DNA of 35,541 bases from a virus: positions 1 to 35,541 of the IMG/VR virus record IMGVR_UViG_3300005563_000066; one strand, 5' to 3'. Shown piece after piece: positions 30,654 through 35,541 of the stretch. The notes beneath the pieces are model-generated. The model was not told the origin of the DNA. It did no database searches and was given only the letters and a program-made list of their open reading frames with translations. The position numbers were made by a program, and so were the translations under genes. Position 1 is the first letter of the stretch; every line of letters starts with the position of its first letter.

Positions 30654-32232
30654 GCCCGCTCCTCCTCGTCCCCGACCCGCGGTGCGCCGGCACGCCGACG
30701 ACCCCGAGGTGGCTCGCCTCCGCGGCCGCCATCGCCACGTCGCCCGCCTTCGGGTCCTTGTCGCGTATGCCGTCCTCGGCGGCCACCAGGTACCTCGTCG
30801 GGTCCATGCCGTGGTTCCACTTGTCTATCGGCTTGTCAAGCGTCCTGTCGCCGTCCCTGGCGGTGTGGCGCTTGCCCCAGACGTAGGCCCCGAACTCCTC
30901 GATGTCCGAGGTCGGCTGCATGTCCTCCTTCAGGGCCTCGTCGACGCCGCCGATCGGCTCGCAGCGCCTGAACATCAGCAGCGGCCTCTCCACGCCGCCG
31001 CTCCACTCCCTCTCGCGCGCCCTGAGGCGCGCCTGCACGGCCTGTATGCCCTCGATCACGTTCTTGACGGCCGCCCGCGTCCGCAGGCCGGTGTGCTTCT
31101 CCAGCGTGGCCCGCCCCTCGGCGTCCCAGTCGCAGATGACCTCCGACGGCAGCGGCTCGGGGAACGCCGCCGCCGGCACGTGCTCCGCGGCGCCGTCCGG
31201 GTCGTAGGACCAGCCCGAGTCCGCCAGCAGCATGCGCGCGGCGTCCTCGACGAGGGTCTCGGTCCGGTAGAGCAGCGCGTACCGCCACCAGCGGCGCGTG
31301 CCCGGCTGCCTGGCCCACTTCTGCACGCACATCGGGTCGTTCCACCCGAAGTCGACCGTCCACTTCCTGTCCCAGTCGTCCGGGGGGCGCGCGGTCGGCC
31401 CCCAGGGCGCCTTGCCGTCGCCGTCGCACCAGACGTGCGCCTCGGCCGTGAACTCCTCGTAGACCGCGCCCTCCGCGCCAGCCCACAGCCCGAGCCGGAG
31501 CCGCTTGTAGCGCGGGCCGGTCAGGTTGTCGAGGCGCGCCAGGTACTTGAGCCCGAACTCCGTGAAGCGCCCCGGCCGCCCGAGGGCTGGGTGCGCGTCC
31601 GGCCACGCCGGGTCCCCGGGGGTCGTCCCCTCGTGGGCCAGCTGGAACAGCGTCGGGTTGTCCTCGTGCAGCGACGCTATCAGCCGCCACCGGCCCTGCA
31701 GCGACCGCTGCCGTATCCAGTGCTCCGGCGCGTCCGGGTTGCAGTCGAACAGCAGCTGCTGGAACGGCAGCACGCCGTTCCTGAGGCGGGACGAGAGCGA
31801 CTCGAAGTCGGCCTCCTCGCACTCCGTCGCCTCCTGCACGTAGACCAGGTCGAACTCCGTCGACATTATCTTGCCGGGCTTGTCCAGCCCGACCACGGCT
31901 ATCTCGGACCCGTTCGGGTACGTGTACTTCGTCCTGTGCGACCGCCGGATGGCGGTGACGTTCATCGGGTGGCCGTCGGGGACGACCTTCTCCTCGAACG
32001 TGAACAGCGCGGCCTCCGTCAGGGACTCGCGCGTTTTCCTCGCTATCAGGCACCGGACGTTCGGGTACTTCTCGCAGAGCAGGTGCAGCTTCTCAAGGCA
32101 CGCCCGGCTCTTGCCGGTGCCCGCCGGGCCGCAGACGCCGACGGTGTCGGACCTGTCGTACAGTATGTCGTACGCCGACCCCTGTGGCCTGAACGCCTTG
32201 CTGGTCCTGTCCTCGCCCGCCTTAGTCGCCAC
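30580..32232 (-). CDS. terL: Terminase large subunit
   Basis: A 550-residue packaging motor. Walker A is GPAGTGKS (35-42). Walker B is FDLVYVQE, with the catalytic glutamate at 134. The nuclease domain shows Asp294 (VDFGWNDP), an Asp pair around 368-370 (CDWDAEG) and Asp477 (NHGMDPTRYL). It pumps DNA into the procapsid and cuts the concatemer. The start is GTG at 32232, overlapping a 71-residue gene by 11 nt. The last ~25 residues are Arg/Gly-rich and overlap the portal start by 74 nt; they may be a late extension of the frame. Confidence 0.92.
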   Translation of the reverse strand: MATKAGEDRTSKAFRPQGSAYDILYDRSDTVGVCGPAGTGKSRACLEKLHLLCEKYPNVRCLIARKTRESLTEAALFTFEEKVVPDGHPMNVTAIRRSHRTKYTYPNGSEIAVVGLDKPGKIMSTEFDLVYVQEATECEEADFESLSSRLRNGVLPFQQLLFDCNPDAPEHWIRQRSLQGRWRLIASLHEDNPTLFQLAHEGTTPGDPAWPDAHPALGRPGRFTEFGLKYLARLDNLTGPRYKRLRLGLWAGAEGAVYEEFTAEAHVWCDGDGKAPWGPTARPPDDWDRKWTVDFGWNDPMCVQKWARQPGTRRWWRYALLYRTETLVEDAARMLLADSGWSYDPDGAAEHVPAAAFPEPLPSEVICDWDAEGRATLEKHTGLRTRAAVKNVIEGIQAVQARLRAREREWSGGVERPLLMFRRCEPIGGVDEALKEDMQPTSDIEEFGAYVWGKRHTARDGDRTLDKPIDKWNHGMDPTRYLVAAEDGIRDKDPKAGDVAMAAAEASHLGVVGVPAHRGSGTRRSGLGRRGRAQAQAARVAGTGWPADWH

Positions 32233-32437
32233 CGCCCGCGCCCCTCTCCTGCGCCACCCTCAGCGCGACAGCCGCCCGCGACGCCGGGTCCAGCAGCAGC
32301 GCGACGGTCGCGACGTAGACCTGGGCGAAGTCCGACGGGTTGCCGCCGGACTCCGCGACGCGGCGCGCGGCCGAGCCCCACACGACCCCGACCACGGCCT
32401 GCGCCTCCGCCGGCAGCCTGTCGATGCCCGTGAGCAC
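32222..32437 (-). CDS. Small unknown protein between terminase subunits
   Basis: A 71-residue protein. The GTG at 32437 sits 6 nt after GGGAGG. The sequence is helical (LPAEAQAVVGVVWGSAARRV, then FAQVYVATVALLLDPASRAAVALRVAQ) with no membrane-length hydrophobic stretch free of charge, and ends in glycines. It overlaps the large terminase start by 11 nt, so translation is probably coupled. I do not recognise it. Confidence 0.6.
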   Translation of the reverse strand: MLTGIDRLPAEAQAVVGVVWGSAARRVAESGGNPSDFAQVYVATVALLLDPASRAAVALRVAQERGAGGGD

Positions 32438-32451
32438 GGCGCGCCTCCCTC

Positions 32452-32856
32452 CTAGAACGGCTCCTTGCCGGGCAGGAGCACGTAGTTGACGAAGCCGGCG
32501 ACCGCGCCGCCGGCGGCCGCGATCTGCAGCTTCTGGCCGGGCAGCGTCTGGAACAGCGGGTCCGGCTGCTGGGGCACGGTCTTGTCGGCGTACTGCCCGC
32601 ACTTGATCGCGCCGGTTAGGTCCGCCGGCGTGGTCCCGTCGGTTGTGATGAACTTGAACGACGCGCCCGCAGTGTCGACCGTCAGGCTGTACCCGACGAC
32701 GGCGATGGCCTGCGCGCCGTACGACAGCGAGCCGGCCCCGGGCGCCGGCGCGTTGGCCGCGATCGCGGCGACGATGTCGCCCGTCACGCCTGAGCCGACC
32801 GACACGGGGGCGGACAGCACCGTGTGCTGCCTTGAGTTGAACCTCGAGTTGTCCAA
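32452..32856 (-). CDS. Unknown small beta-rich virion-type protein
   Basis: A 134-residue protein starting at TTG 32856 after AGAGGGAG. It is rich in Ala/Gly/Val/Thr with alternating hydrophobic residues (AIAVVGYSLTVDTAGASFKFITT) and ends AGFVNYVLLPGKEPF. This resembles small beta proteins of phage heads (decoration- or spike-like), but no family is recognised. It lies between the two terminase subunit genes, which is unusual for a virion protein. Confidence 0.55.
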   Translation of the reverse strand: MDNSRFNSRQHTVLSAPVSVGSGVTGDIVAAIAANAPAPGAGSLSYGAQAIAVVGYSLTVDTAGASFKFITTDGTTPADLTGAIKCGQYADKTVPQQPDPLFQTLPGQKLQIAAAGGAVAGFVNYVLLPGKEPF

Positions 32857-32871
32857 TTTGCGTCTCCCTCT

Positions 32872-33546
32872 TTACATGCGCTCCAGGTCGATGCCGATGT
32901 ACAGCTTCCGCACCTGGGTTGTCTCAGTCTTCTCCGTCCACTGCCCCAGCTCGGTGGCCAGCTGCCTCGACAGCTCCGCCTCCGCGCGCAGCAGCCCGGC
33001 GTCCACCTCGAACTCGTCCACGACCTCCGCCTTGGGCCCCGAGCCGATCACGCGCTGTCTGTGCACCACGAGGCCGGACGACCCCCCCGGCGCCGAGGCC
33101 AGCAGCGCGTCGAACTCGACGCCGGCGGCCTCCGCGGCCCTCGCGGAGGTCCCGGCCGCCGCGCGCTCCTCGACCACCTGCTGTATGCGCTCGAGCCTGT
33201 CCTGGTGGCGCGCCACGCGCGCCTCCTTGACCGCGAGGCCGTTCAGGGCGCAGCGCTCCAGCATCCTGGCCCGCAGGGCGGTGACCGCCGCGGCGAAGTC
33301 TGGGTCGCGCGTCCACTCGCGCACGGCCCCGGCCGACACGCCGACCGCTAGGCCGACGTCTACAGCCGTGAAGCGGCCGTCGGCGAGCATAGGCAGCGCG
33401 GCGATCCGCGGCTGCGTCCACTCGAACGAGCCGAGGGCCAGCTCCAGCCGCCCGCCGGGCAGCTCGAGCGCAACGATGTTGTTGGCCGGCGCTTGGCTGC
33501 CGGCCTGGGGCGAAAGCGTCTCCACGCCTACATTGTACCGCGCCAA
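32872..33546 (-). CDS. terS: Terminase small subunit (putative)
   Basis: A 224-residue protein, first gene of the - strand cluster. Residues ~48-90 hold a helix-turn-helix (PMLADGRFTAVDVGLAVGVSAGAVREW, then PDFAAAVTALR), the arrangement of small terminases that recognise packaging DNA. A long helical middle (~100-140) and a beta C-terminus follow. The annotated start is TTG at 33546 (weak ribosome site). An in-frame GTG at 33525 coincides with the predicted transcription start of a promoter at 33532-33560, so a 217-residue product from a leaderless mRNA is a real alternative. Confidence 0.68.
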   Translation of the reverse strand: MARYNVGVETLSPQAGSQAPANNIVALELPGGRLELALGSFEWTQPRIAALPMLADGRFTAVDVGLAVGVSAGAVREWTRDPDFAAAVTALRARMLERCALNGLAVKEARVARHQDRLERIQQVVEERAAAGTSARAAEAAGVEFDALLASAPGGSSGLVVHRQRVIGSGPKAEVVDEFEVDAGLLRAEAELSRQLATELGQWTEKTETTQVRKLYIGIDLERM

Positions 33547-33560
33547 GGCCGGCCGGTCCA
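33532..33560 (-). promoter_or_regulatory. Promoter for the structural gene cluster
   Basis: On the - strand: TGGACC (33560-33555), a 17-bp spacer, then TACAAT (33537-33532). The predicted start of transcription, about 7 nt further, falls on or next to GTG 33525. Confidence 0.45.
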
Positions 33561-33564
33561 GGCC

Positions 33565-33583
33565 CGGCCGAAAATACCGGCCG
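33565..33583. promoter_or_regulatory. CGGCCG-N7-CGGCCG inverted repeat upstream of the terminase promoter
   Basis: Two CGGCCG boxes flank an A-rich 7-nt centre just upstream of the -35 box of the structural promoter; a further GGCCGGCC palindrome lies in the promoter spacer (33548-33555). It could be an operator or a hairpin in RNA read from elsewhere. Confidence 0.35.
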
Positions 33584-33675
33584 AGGGGCCGAGCGAGACC
33601 AAGTACGTACCAACTTTACCGTTCTGGCGGAAAACTCCGTGCGGGTGGCGCGGGACTAACTCCGGGCATCGGGCA

Positions 33676-33684
33676 TGGTATAAT
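33676..33684 (+). promoter_or_regulatory. Extended -10 promoter (P1)
   Basis: TGGTATAAT is an extended -10 element in an AT-rich stretch; no -35 is seen at 17 bp. The 12-nt string GGTATAATATAT recurs at 35253, before the second RHH-like gene. Confidence 0.5.
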
Positions 33685-33739
33685 ATATATGTTGGTGACG
33701 AGGTCGACCGATCGACATCGAAATCAATCAATCAAAAAA

Positions 33740-33761
33740 TATGTCGAAATCTATTGACATA
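33740..33761. promoter_or_regulatory. Operator dyad TATGTC-N10-GACATA over the -35 box of P2
   Basis: Arms at 33740-33745 and 33756-33761 form an exact dyad (7 bp counting the flanking A/T). The right arm includes GACA of the TTGACA box, so a bound repressor would block P2. The same pattern occurs at 35264-35285. GTCGA-based dyads at 33703-33716 and 33789-33804 add to an operator-rich region. Confidence 0.5.
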
Positions 33762-33782
33762 TGAGAGATGATATGATATAAT
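33754..33782 (+). promoter_or_regulatory. Consensus sigma70-type promoter (P2)
   Basis: TTGACA at 33754-33759, a 17-bp spacer, and TATAAT at 33777-33782: a perfect match to the bacterial consensus. It drives the gene at 33837, whose leader would be about 48 nt. Confidence 0.85.
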
Positions 33783-33836
33783 AAAGATGTCGATAATGAT
33801 CGACGAAACCAACAACTAAACAACAGGAGACAGATT

Positions 33837-34268
33837 ATGTCAACAACAGCCACTTCGTCCATCGTGGACGCCGTCAAGGCGATGGTCGCCGCCACCCAGG
33901 TCGCGAAGGACCAGCGCAAGAAGACGACCGACGTCAACCAGGCGACGGGCAAGAACTTCACGTCGAAGGACAAGGCGGTTCTCGGCATCGACGACGACCG
34001 CTCCATCACCTGGGCGTACCCGAACTTCGAGGCGACCGACTCCGAGAAGTTCAAGCTGCTCGCGAAGGCCTGCGACACGACGGCCAGCGAGCTCGCGAGC
34101 CGCATCGTCATGGACTGGTTCGACAAGAACCGCGAGGCGATCGAGCCGGTCGTCGCCGACCAGCTGAGAGGCGAGCAGACCGAAGAGGACCTGCAGAAGA
34201 AGCTCGAGGCGATACAGCGACAGCAGGCCGCGACGCTGGCCAAACTCGAGGCGCTCCGCAAGAAGTAG
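33837..34268 (+). CDS. Strongly expressed early protein, ribbon-helix-helix-like with coiled-coil tail (putative)
   Basis: A 143-residue protein. The segment SITWAYPNFEA (56-66), followed by helices DSEKFKLLAKACDTT (68-82) and ASELASRIVMDWFDKNRE (83-100), is compatible with a ribbon-helix-helix fold. Residues ~105-143 form a charged coiled coil (LQKKLEAIQRQQAATLAKLEALRKK). The N-terminal 50 residues are polar. The ATG lies 6 nt after AGGAGA and behind a consensus promoter. Five of six Ile codons are ATC, unlike neighbouring genes, which suggests high expression. A DNA-binding role, perhaps in regulating its own promoter, is inference. Its stop is 2 nt before a hammerhead ribozyme. Confidence 0.7.
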   Translation: MSTTATSSIVDAVKAMVAATQVAKDQRKKTTDVNQATGKNFTSKDKAVLGIDDDRSITWAYPNFEATDSEKFKLLAKACDTTASELASRIVMDWFDKNREAIEPVVADQLRGEQTEEDLQKKLEAIQRQQAATLAKLEALRKK

Positions 34269-34270
34269 CA

Positions 34271-34339
34271 GGACGAAACCTAGCCACCGCCGAGAGGCGG
34301 TGGCGACGGTCCCGCGGTGACGCCGCGGCTGACGAGTCC
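34271..34339 (+). ncRNA. Type II hammerhead ribozyme
   Basis: All conserved core elements are present in the type II order. Stem II 5' strand GGAC (34271-34274) and 3' strand GTCC (34336-34339) close the motif. GAA is at 34275-34277. Stem III is ACC with GGT (34278-34280, 34308-34310), then an internal loop TA/GAC and a perfect 9-bp hairpin with a GAGA tetraloop (34283-34304). The cleavage triplet GTC ends at 34311. Stem I is CCGCGG-TGACG-CCGCGG (34312-34328). The core CTGACGA is at 34329-34335. A15.1-U16.1 pairs and H17 is C. Predicted self-cleavage is between 34311 and 34312, which would separate the RHH-like mRNA from the small ORFs downstream. Activity has not been shown here. Confidence 0.87.
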
Positions 34340-34359
34340 ACGACGAAAGGGGACGGACC

Positions 34360-34440
34360 ATGGCATACGCTATCGCATCGCTTGTCGTCGCATTCGCGAC
34401 GTCGGTGTTCGGCGCCTACGTCTGGGCGCTCGTACACTAA
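34360..34440 (+). CDS. 26-residue membrane peptide
   Basis: The ATG at 34360 follows AAAGGGGAC and encodes MAYAIASLVVAFATSVFGAY and six more residues before TAA. Nearly the whole peptide is hydrophobic and long enough for one membrane helix. It starts about 20 nt after the ribozyme, so it would be the first ORF on the 3' cleavage product. No family is recognised; the good ribosome site and position support translation. Confidence 0.5.
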   Translation: MAYAIASLVVAFATSVFGAYVWALVH

Positions 34441-34455
34441 CACATGGAGGTCATC

Positions 34456-34623
34456 ATGACCCGACAACAGCTTGGCTTCGCCAAGCGCTACTACAAGGCG
34501 CTGCCGCGCGACCTGGCGCGGCGGCTGGCCAGGGCCTGGGCGCAGTCCAGGCAGGCGCACACCGAGACCGAAGGGGAGCGCAAGCTCAACGACGTCCGCC
34601 GTCGCGGCGTGGAGGTGCTATGA
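34456..34623 (+). CDS. Small basic helical protein, 55 residues
   Basis: The ATG at 34456 is 5 nt after GGAGG. The product (MTRQQLGFAKRYYKALPRDL and following) is Arg/Ala-rich and helical, net positive, without membrane segment or known motif; a nucleic-acid-binding role would be a guess. Its TGA overlaps the next ATG (ATGATG), giving translational coupling. Confidence 0.55.
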   Translation: MTRQQLGFAKRYYKALPRDLARRLARAWAQSRQAHTETEGERKLNDVRRRGVEVL

Positions 34624-34760
34624 TGGACGAGGCGCAGATAGAGGCCCTGCGCGCCAGGGCCGCGGACATCGCCGCGCGGGGGTGGCTGCGGCGCAGCTGC
34701 CTGACCGCCACCGCCTGGGCGCTGGCCCTGGTCGCTGCCCTGGCCCTGGTCGCCAGGTAA
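34620..34760 (+). CDS. 46-residue membrane protein
   Basis: Starts at ATG 34620 (or the adjacent ATG 34623), overlapping the previous stop, with GGAGGTGCT upstream. The first 20 residues are a charged helix (MMDEAQIEALRARAADIAAR). Residues ~25-46 are one hydrophobic segment (CLTATAWALALVAALALVA). The last codons lie within an 18-bp palindrome. Function is unknown. Confidence 0.5.
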   Translation: MMDEAQIEALRARAADIAARGWLRRSCLTATAWALALVAALALVAR

Positions 34761-34772
34761 GCCGGCTTACCT
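34755..34772. repeat. 18-bp perfect palindrome
   Basis: AGGTAAGCCGGCTTACCT reads identically on both strands and overlaps the stop codon of the 46-residue ORF. As RNA it would fold to a 7-bp hairpin with a CCGG loop; as DNA it could be an operator. Confidence 0.6.
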
Positions 34773-34778
34773 TCCACT

Positions 34779-34816
34779 GTCGGCGACTTTGGGGCCCCGG
34801 CCCCAGGGTCGCCGGC
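34779..34816 (+). terminator. Long GC stem-loop after the small ORFs
   Basis: GTCGGCGAC (34779-34787) pairs with GTCGCCGGC (34808-34816) over 9 bp with one G-U, and an inner GGGG/CCCC stem lies between. It comes 19 nt after the last stop of the small-ORF group. There is no T tract, so termination is uncertain. Confidence 0.45.
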
Positions 34817-35251
34817 GCCGCCGCCGTGGGCCGCCGTGGCGAGGCCGTGGCCGGCCGACAGAGCGCCTGCTCTAACTGGTAGGCAAAGGTCCCGTGCGCG
34901 ACCCCCAGCCCGATCGCTCCAAACGAAACTTAATCATCATCTCTGAGTTGCCAGCTAATAACAGGCGACGACAACAATCCGTTTTTGACGGGGCGTATCC
35001 CTTTGAGGCCTTGGGCGCGCGTATGGGCATGTGTCTACCGTTAATAGAGCAGGTGCTCTGAAATCAGTGCGTTCGATCGGCAGGGCGGAAGGCGCCGGGC
35101 GCAAGACAGGGTTCCACGCCCTCTCTGCTGCGCCGCTTCTTGACCAAAACGCCGGGCCCGAAGGCGAGACTGTGCGTCGTCGCTGCGGCTGTGGCGCGCA
35201 ACCGGCCCGAAAAATAGGTTGGCGCCCGTCTGGTCGTCTTTGGCGGCGCTG
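34817..35251. other. Non-coding stretch rich in short inverted repeats
   Basis: This ~435-bp stretch contains no ORF with a credible ribosome site. It holds two related dyads, AGAGC-N4-GCTCT (34860-34873 and 35046-35059), GCCGTGG repeated three times near 34826-34856, a GGTC/GACC hairpin near 34888, a CCGT/ACGG hairpin near 34979, AGGGCG/CGCCCT arms at 35082 and 35117, and CAACC/GGTTG arms around 35198-35220. It could be a leader, replication or packaging site, or a structured RNA; nothing decides between these. Confidence 0.4.
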
Positions 35252-35254
35252 GGG

Positions 35255-35260
35255 TATAAT
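35255..35260 (+). promoter_or_regulatory. Promoter -10 box before the second RHH-like gene
   Basis: TATAAT inside GGTATAATATAT, the same 12 nt as in P1 (33677-33688). No good -35 is seen, so it may need an activator. Transcription would start near 35267, about 29 nt before the ATG. Confidence 0.5.
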
Positions 35261-35263
35261 ATA

Positions 35264-35285
35264 TGTGTCAAGTCAGGAAGACACA
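35264..35285. promoter_or_regulatory. Operator dyad TGTGTC-N10-GACACA
   Basis: Exact 6-bp arms with a 10-bp spacer (35264-35269, 35280-35285) lie between the -10 box and the Shine-Dalgarno site. It has the same form and spacing as the dyad at 33740-33761 (TRTGTC-N10-GACAYA), suggesting one repressor for both promoters. Confidence 0.5.
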
Positions 35286-35295
35286 GGGGGTATGT

Positions 35296-35484
35296 ATGAA
35301 GATCACGGTCGCTATTGAGTTGGACGCCGAGGAGGCCGCCGCCGTGCACGAGGCGGCGCTGGAGAGGGGCATGAGCGTCGCCAACTTTGTCGCAGGGTCG
35401 ATCGAGGTCGGGTCGGACGCCATCGCGGCCGACGACTGCAGGGTCGTCGTCGAGGAGGCCGACGAGGTGACGAGCAGGCACTAG
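35296..35484 (+). CDS. Small CopG/Arc-like (ribbon-helix-helix) protein (putative)
   Basis: The ATG at 35296 lies 5 nt after AGGGGG and encodes 62 residues. KITVAIELDAEEAAAVHEAALERG followed by MSVANFVAGSIEVG fits the strand-helix-turn-helix of CopG/Arc-type DNA-binding proteins, with a short acidic tail. Such proteins usually repress nearby promoters as dimers. A dyad operator lies directly upstream, so autoregulation is plausible. The acidic composition is unusual for the DNA-contacting face, so the call stays tentative. Confidence 0.55.
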   Translation: MKITVAIELDAEEAAAVHEAALERGMSVANFVAGSIEVGSDAIAADDCRVVVEEADEVTSRH

Positions 35485-35541
35485 GTGGCGAAACGCGTCG
35501 GGGGCCTGGTGTCCCCGATGTGTACGCGGAGTGACAGCCGC
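35485..35541 (+). CDS. Possible start of a further gene, cut by the window end
   Basis: A GTG immediately after the previous TAG opens a frame of 19 codons to the window end (MAKRVGGLVSPM and following). A GAGCAGG lies about 8 nt upstream. A 6-bp hairpin (35498-35518, TCGGGG/CCCCGA) falls inside it and could instead be a transcription end. Too short to judge. Confidence 0.2.
   Translation, partial: MAKRVGGLVSPMCTRSDSR

Follow-up and report, generated by a model that had tools for sequence, protein, structure and literature searches.

Clustered type II hammerhead ribozymes (HHRs) of phages and prophages are the closest described systems to the element analysed here. Three prophage HHR arrays cleave in vitro, and one of them, the triple array of A. 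tumefaciens, does so upon expression in E. coli, too (Perreault et al., 2011, PMC3088659). In the halovirus HF2, a start codon follows an HHR at a distance of 13 nt, and the 5' end mapped for a transcript lies at most 3 nt from the cleavage site (PMC3088659). Prokaryotic HHRs adjoin small ORFs of undefined role and show a persistent link to phages; a review of 2017 termed their role an open question (PMC6155905).

Here, we analyse a stretch of viral DNA of 35,541 nucleotides (positions 1 to 35,541 of IMG/VR record IMGVR_UViG_3300005563_000066; hereafter, the window), which contains a complete type II hammerhead, HHR1, near its right end. Judging from its sequence and placement, we consider it likely that HHR1 is a genuine hammerhead that acts as an intercistronic self-cutter of early mRNA.

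Structure of HHR1

Read from the sequence, HHR1 has three stems and a core in which all bases are canonical (Table 1). Its stems I and III are closed by loops and stem II is open, in the order GAA-III-UH-I-CUGANGA that defines the type II permutation. Written as RNA, with a slash at the predicted cleavage site, the ribozyme reads GGAC-GAA-ACC-UA-GCCACCGCC-GAGA-GGCGGUGGC-GAC-GGU-C/CCGCGG-UGACG-CCGCGG-CUGACGA-GUCC. The core consists of CUGANGA, GAA, the A15.1-U16.1 pair (A34278-U34310) and C34311 as H17, and the helices comprise 6 bp (stem I), 4 bp (stem II) and 3+9 bp (stem III), all of which covary in relatives. The initial annotation had already recognised a complete type II hammerhead with every core base in permuted order at this position, which both the sequence and the covariance model described below bear out, and its cleavage site after 34311, 43 nt past the upstream stop codon (34266-34268), coincides with the site that we predict. 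The 9-bp GNRA-capped stem III that it had described is also present, with a GAGA loop, but not as one continuous extension, since an asymmetric UA/GAC internal loop (34281-34282 / 34305-34307) lies between the 3 basal pairs and the 9 upper ones. The upper part (34283-34304) pairs GCCACCGCC with GGCGGTGGC, the 3' arm being GGCGGUGGC in RNA. Stem II begins 2 nt after the stop codon.

The folding z-score of -4.2 indicates an unusually stable structure. By energy evaluation the hammerhead fold reaches -37.9 kcal/mol, while the structure of lowest energy is at -39.5 kcal/mol; this competitor, 1.6 kcal/mol below, lengthens stem I into the core. In a majority of type II HHRs, a pseudoknot connects loop I with the 3' tail of stem II (PMC3088659). 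Inspection by eye revealed no complementary stretch of at least 4 bases between loop I (UGACG) and the tail (ACGACG) of HHR1, and with no obvious loop I pseudoknot it is uncertain how fast HHR1 would cleave at physiological Mg2+. Loop I opens with U as in relatives, where U is the first base in 49 of 50 aligned sequences, so that another contact may be formed.

The motif GACGAAA is present twice, at 34272-34278 within the core and at 34342-34348 just 3' of stem II; near the second copy, a competing hairpin of 3 bp might arise from GTC-CAC-GAC. An alternative type I/III hammerhead built on the copy at 34342, which corresponds to a match to the Rfam family RF00008, was rejected because its stem III is limited to A-U and cannot extend.

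Table 1. Features of the HHR1 locus and its surroundings. Positions refer to the window, except for those preceded by L127, a locus on the longer contig of the same phage.
Feature	Position	Strand	Basis and remarks
Promoter, sigma-70 type, TTGACA-17-TATAAT, 12/12, extended TG	33754..33782	+	sequence
Upstream gene P0001, 143 aa, without recognised domain	33837..34268	+	domain searches; single-sequence model too weak for use (pLDDT 52)
HHR1, type II hammerhead ribozyme	34271..34339	+	sequence; covariance model; descriptor; predicted cleavage C34311/C34312
HHR1 stem II 3' strand GGAC (partner GTCC, 34336-34339)	34271..34274	+	sequence; stem II covariation in 50 phage HHRs
HHR1 core G12 A13 A14 (GAA)	34275..34277	+	sequence; invariant in the 50-sequence alignment A1
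HHR1 stem III hairpin, base ACC (34278-34280) / GGT (34308-34310), GAGA loop	34278..34310	+	sequence
HHR1 H17 = C, cleavage-site nucleotide	34311..34311	+	sequence; C in 217/227 collected canonical HHRs
HHR1 stem I hairpin CCGCGG-TGACG-CCGCGG	34312..34328	+	sequence; stem I covariation in A1
HHR1 core CTGACGA (34329-34335) and stem II 5' strand GTCC (34336-34339)	34329..34339	+	sequence
Small ORF, 26 aa, ATG 20 nt past HHR1	34360..34440	+	
Small ORF MTRQQLGF..., 55 aa, preceded by GGAGG	34456..34623	+	
Small ORF MDEAQIEAL..., 45 aa, hydrophobic C-terminus	34624..34761	+	
Promoter-like motif GGTATAATATATRTGT, ahead of the gene that precedes HHR2	35253..35268	+	second copy at 33677-33692
Small gene before HHR2, 62 aa counted from this ATG	35296..35484	+	
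HHR2, truncated at the right edge of the window	35486..35541	+	R1 31.3 bits; complete at L127 2152-2219
HHR3	L127 3148-3204	+	R1 47.0 bits; core CCGACGA (U4C)

Detection and covariation

A structural descriptor found one match in the window, HHR1, and none in 20 first-order Markov sequences of equal composition. We further built a covariance model, R1, from 50 HHRs of other phages (alignment A1), with this phage excluded. R1 matches HHR1 over its full length (model positions 1-64 of 64) with 53.4 bits and an E-value of 3.3e-14.

Rfam behaves differently. At the gathering cut-off, no match was obtained in the window; the isolated HHR1 stretch matches RF00008 alone, with 14.8 bits, and does not reach the 37-bit gathering cut-off of RF02276 (Hammerhead_II). 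The initial annotation had named a score below this threshold as grounds for rejecting the element, and the score is indeed below it, but the test proved insensitive: RF02276 assigns 26.7-34.6 bits, thus less than 37 in every case, to seven perfect type II HHRs of one phage contig (L040), so that a sub-threshold Rfam score is not diagnostic for HHR1. Across 11 loci with dozens of HHRs, the gathering cut-off likewise gave zero hammerhead matches. The RF02276 threshold is too strict for the phage type II class, members of which are missed. Other Rfam matches at relaxed E-values (Hrs13, ar7 on the minus strand; mir-4526; CcsR1) were sub-threshold and taken as chance.

A fixed pattern of stem II and core occurs in at least 120 stretches of viral contigs and in 13 stretches of the full collection of bacterial and archaeal genomes, which differs in size from the viral one. 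When the core was replaced by the forbidden variant U4G, no viral contig matched, against at least 120 stretches for the canonical pattern. Although the low Rfam scores might suggest a chance match or a decayed relic, the R1 E-value of 3e-14, the 0 matches in 20 Markov controls and this U4G control leave such a reading with almost no probability, and the chance-match reading is already refuted.

Pair cells of alignment A1 are paired in 92% of cases, and two-sided changes number 307, compared with 98 after shuffling and 60-108 when partners were slid. Stem I is 100% paired in A1, and each of its 6 pairs shows two-sided changes. Since the rows of A1 had been picked for pairing, an unselected test of stem I was added: among 124 unique matches collected by the stem II and core pattern only, 77% have a stem I of at least 5 bp, compared with 1.3% after segment shuffling. 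This covariation also bears on the proposal that the region is a transcription terminator or a hairpin that stabilises mRNA without catalysis. A GC-rich 9-bp stem III located 3' of a stop codon would suit that role; no U-run terminator-like site was found there, however, and GAAA, CUGACGA and stems I and II would be superfluous, yet they are conserved and the stems covary. We regard this proposal as highly improbable.

An array of four hammerheads in one phage

The same phage is represented by IMGVR_UViG_3300025949_000035 (48,962 bp), which is identical over the shared stretch examined and continues further to the right. On this 49-kb contig, R1 detects four HHRs, all on the + strand of a 3.2-kb region (contig 31,937-35,105), and the rest of the contig has none; four hammerheads of the same orientation thus flank genes of one phage. 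The position of HHR1 between an upstream gene and tiny ORFs, as initially annotated, is real, although HHR1 is not alone but the first of at least four. HHR4 (+ strand) scores 55.2 bits with R1, and HHR2 contains a C-U mismatch at positions 1.1/2.1, beside the cleavage site, and starts 1 nt past a TAG stop. From HHR1 to HHR4, stem II follows the stop codon by 2, 1, 1 and 0 nt, and the next ATG follows the end of the ribozyme by 20, 40, 39 and 29 nt.

The strong promoter expected upstream is found as a perfect TTGACA-17-TATAAT. The RHH-like nature ascribed to the upstream gene was not confirmed: it finds no Pfam or PHROG support, and the fold model is weak (pLDDT 52); a search for relatives via this 143-aa protein retrieved the same phage alone. 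The host of this phage is probably an actinobacterium.

Several further observations concern the surroundings of the array. The GGTATAATATATRTGT copies and a similar motif at L127 5906 precede successive gene blocks of this GC-rich genome. A 16-nt inverted repeat, CAGAGCGCCTGCTCTA / TAGAGCAGGTGCTCTG (34859-34874 / 35045-35060), each arm of which is nearly palindromic, sits in about 490 nt without clear genes and could represent an operator pair. In the right part of the phage, L127 13252-13983 encodes a protein that resembles pyrimidine dimer DNA glycosylases (PF03013, E 1e-17).

Arrays in other viral records and cultured phages

We scanned 49 viral records whole with R1, counting the 49-kb contig and not the window, all of them chosen for at least one HHR. 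Two or more HHRs occur in 29 records, at least 4 in 16 and at least 7 in 10, and the largest array comprises 13 HHRs in one 41-kb record. Among the matches listed, arrays are clustered and nearly always confined to a single strand. Their placement relative to genes is tight: 117 of 197 unique phage HHRs start -1 to +10 nt from the stop codon of an ORF that is at least 40 codons long (7.6% for random positions), with a one-base overlap in 24 and a flush junction in 23, and a Shine-Dalgarno-like motif lies at most 45 nt downstream in 84% of the 197 (47% for random positions).

HHR-array regions of metagenomic contigs match the Streptomyces phages Wentworth, Gibson, Rooney, Lizz, Yara, Dryad and phiRKBJ001. 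In the early regions of these seven cultured phages, R1 identifies 49 HHRs, 6-8 in each, and where orthologous HHRs stand ahead of the same gene, compensatory changes are seen in stems I and III. For Wentworth, Yara and Gibson, zero RNA features are annotated in GenBank in the HHR regions examined. In these three phages, 20 of 21 HHRs lie clear of annotated genes (chance about 0.2 each) and stop 11-17 nt short of an annotated start codon, the exception being one that overlaps the start annotated for Yara gene 88.

This spacing raises the question of whether the HHR mainly serves 5'-leader maturation for the downstream gene, which would receive a constant 5'-OH hairpin leader and ribosome-binding site whatever precedes, the split from the upstream message being incidental. 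While the next start is fixed at 11-17 nt in 20 of the 21, the previous annotated stop is located 4 to more than 700 nt away, some HHRs follow long gaps without annotated genes, and the HHR of HF2, 13 nt before its start codon, points in the same direction (PMC3088659). In the phage of the window, however, spacing is tight upstream (0-2 nt) and variable downstream (20-40 nt), and the stop codon overlaps or abuts stem II in 47 of 197 metagenomic HHRs; we therefore think it somewhat unlikely that leader maturation is the main function. Within an intercistronic self-cutter, forming the 5' leader would still be no less important than forming the upstream 3' end, since placement in the related arrays is tied to the downstream start as much as to the upstream stop.

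In the parts searched, no HHR was found in TerL relatives of 36-42% identity, including the Thermobifida phage P1312 and the Streptomyces phages Dagobah and Xkcd426. The element is hence dispensable in the wider group, and arrays appear to have been gained and lost over time. Assemblies labelled Phycicoccus jejuensis, Streptomyces iakyrus and an Eggerthellaceae MAG (L128, L129 and L140) share an HHR stretch of 4.5-6.7 kb that is 99.9-100% identical and probably represents one phage or element, or contamination; the HHRs within it are about 90% mutually identical, which suggests recent copying. Three almost identical HHRs of one viral contig (L013 2895 and 3418, L079 320) suggest cassette duplication within a genome. 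The idea of the HHR as a recombination junction was discarded, as a breakpoint inside the ribozyme is not evident from pairwise stem identities. Pairs that have only the downstream gene in common show identities of 0.58 in stem III (background 0.51) and 0.70 in stem I (0.54), and pairs that have only the upstream gene in common retain both stems (0.70 and 0.77).

Conserved variants

The stem III internal loop of HHR1 recurs in other phages. The pattern CCUA/GAYGG occurs in 38 stretches of viral contigs, compared with 4 for an AU control, about tenfold fewer. All 35 unique HHRs of this kind, read from other phage contigs (loci L159-L195), have a hairpin of at least 5 bp flush between UA and GAY. 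The loop may resemble the 11-nt GNRA-tetraloop receptor.

A second variant concerns the core. The U4C pattern (CCGANGA) was found in 19 stretches, not every one with good stems, and U4G in none. Sites with U4C are spread over several phage lineages (L127 3148-3204, L057 4969-5020, L155 4254, L157 4450, L158 3877, L196 and L201-L206), and U4C is kept ahead of one gene in 6 of the 7 Streptomyces phages. Lower activity in vitro has been reported for U4C, which yet supported viroid infection (PMC3088659). Given the mismatch in HHR2 and the U4C core of HHR3, not all four HHRs of the present phage may be fast.

A model for the processing of early mRNA

Hammerhead cleavage leaves a 2',3'-cyclic phosphate and a 5'-OH. 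This chemistry, together with the placement of the HHRs, predicts that the transcript is cut between gene blocks, and a processing site that splits the transcript between cistrons, as the initial annotation had suggested, remains the best-supported reading. The sequence, structure, covariation, serial arrangement and stop codon-ribosome-binding site placement of the HHRs are direct observations. From them we infer cleavage in the cell and a separate stability and translation of each message; the nature of the ends would follow from the established chemistry.

Polymerase starting from one or more promoters at 33.68-33.78 kb would produce one RNA with the 143-aa gene, HHR1 and the small ORFs. 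HHR1 would then fold and cut itself 3' of C34311. The upstream product would terminate in the GC-rich hairpin of stem III and carry a 2',3'-cyclic phosphate; the downstream product would begin with a 5'-OH at the stable hairpin of stem I, after which come the core and stem II strand, CUGACGAGUCC, the ribosome-binding site and the first small ORF. With at least three further repeats downstream, the early transcript would be converted into gene-sized messages with a hairpin at each new end. A ribosome located on the abutting stop codon should mask GGAC-GAA, and translation termination could in this way gate the folding of the ribozyme.

The shared orientation of the HHRs in an array means that each segment between two sites would carry ligatable ends, and these segments might be joined into circular or spliced RNAs by the host RtcB or by a reverse ribozyme reaction. 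Spliced or circular array products were sought by Perreault et al. and none was detected (PMC3088659), and a non-systematic scan of ten early proteins revealed no RNA ligase, which makes such joining very improbable in our view. Returning to self-cutting between cistrons, we tentatively propose, at somewhat less than even odds, that the early region of many phages is organised as ribozyme-delimited cistrons, with up to 13 HHRs that each fit between a stop codon and a ribosome-binding site, protein-free processing of one transcript into many messages and standard 5'-OH hairpin leaders. The speed of individual ribozymes would perhaps be tuned by U4C and by a hitherto undescribed tertiary contact of the UA/GAY loop.

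Comparison with known systems

The HHRs located between phage genes form a large and mostly unannotated class. The cultured Streptomyces phages, which have laboratory hosts and 6-8 HHRs each at tight intercistronic positions, permit precise predictions, and the use of ribozymes by phages to cut their own early mRNA can thus be addressed in them. We found no later reports of such phage HHR arrays in the literature searched, which excluded subscription journals and preprints.

With the clustered type II HHRs of phages and prophages (Perreault et al., 2011, PMC3088659; RF02276), HHR1 has the permutation, core and cleavage site in common. The two systems are also alike in the occurrence of multiple copies that flank single genes or gene blocks, for which cutting of long phage transcripts has been proposed (PMC3088659). 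HHR1 differs from them in its score below the Rfam cut-off, the lack of an evident loop I pseudoknot and the UA/GAY loop in stem III, and the arrays reach 13 HHRs per record here, compared with the triple arrangement described earlier (PMC3088659). The HHphage of the haloviruses HF1 and HF2 is similar in being an early-region HHR just before a start codon, with the HF2 5' end at the cleavage site, whereas its archaeal host, its atypical core insertions and the single HHR described set it apart (PMC3088659). The prokaryotic HHRs found near small non-conserved ORFs resemble the present ones in their neighbouring HHRs, small ORFs and link to phages (PMC6155905); placement statistics and named culturable phages go beyond that description. 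HHR clusters in phages were described as early as 2011, and what our analysis adds is the array described here, the rule of its placement and examples that can be cultured.
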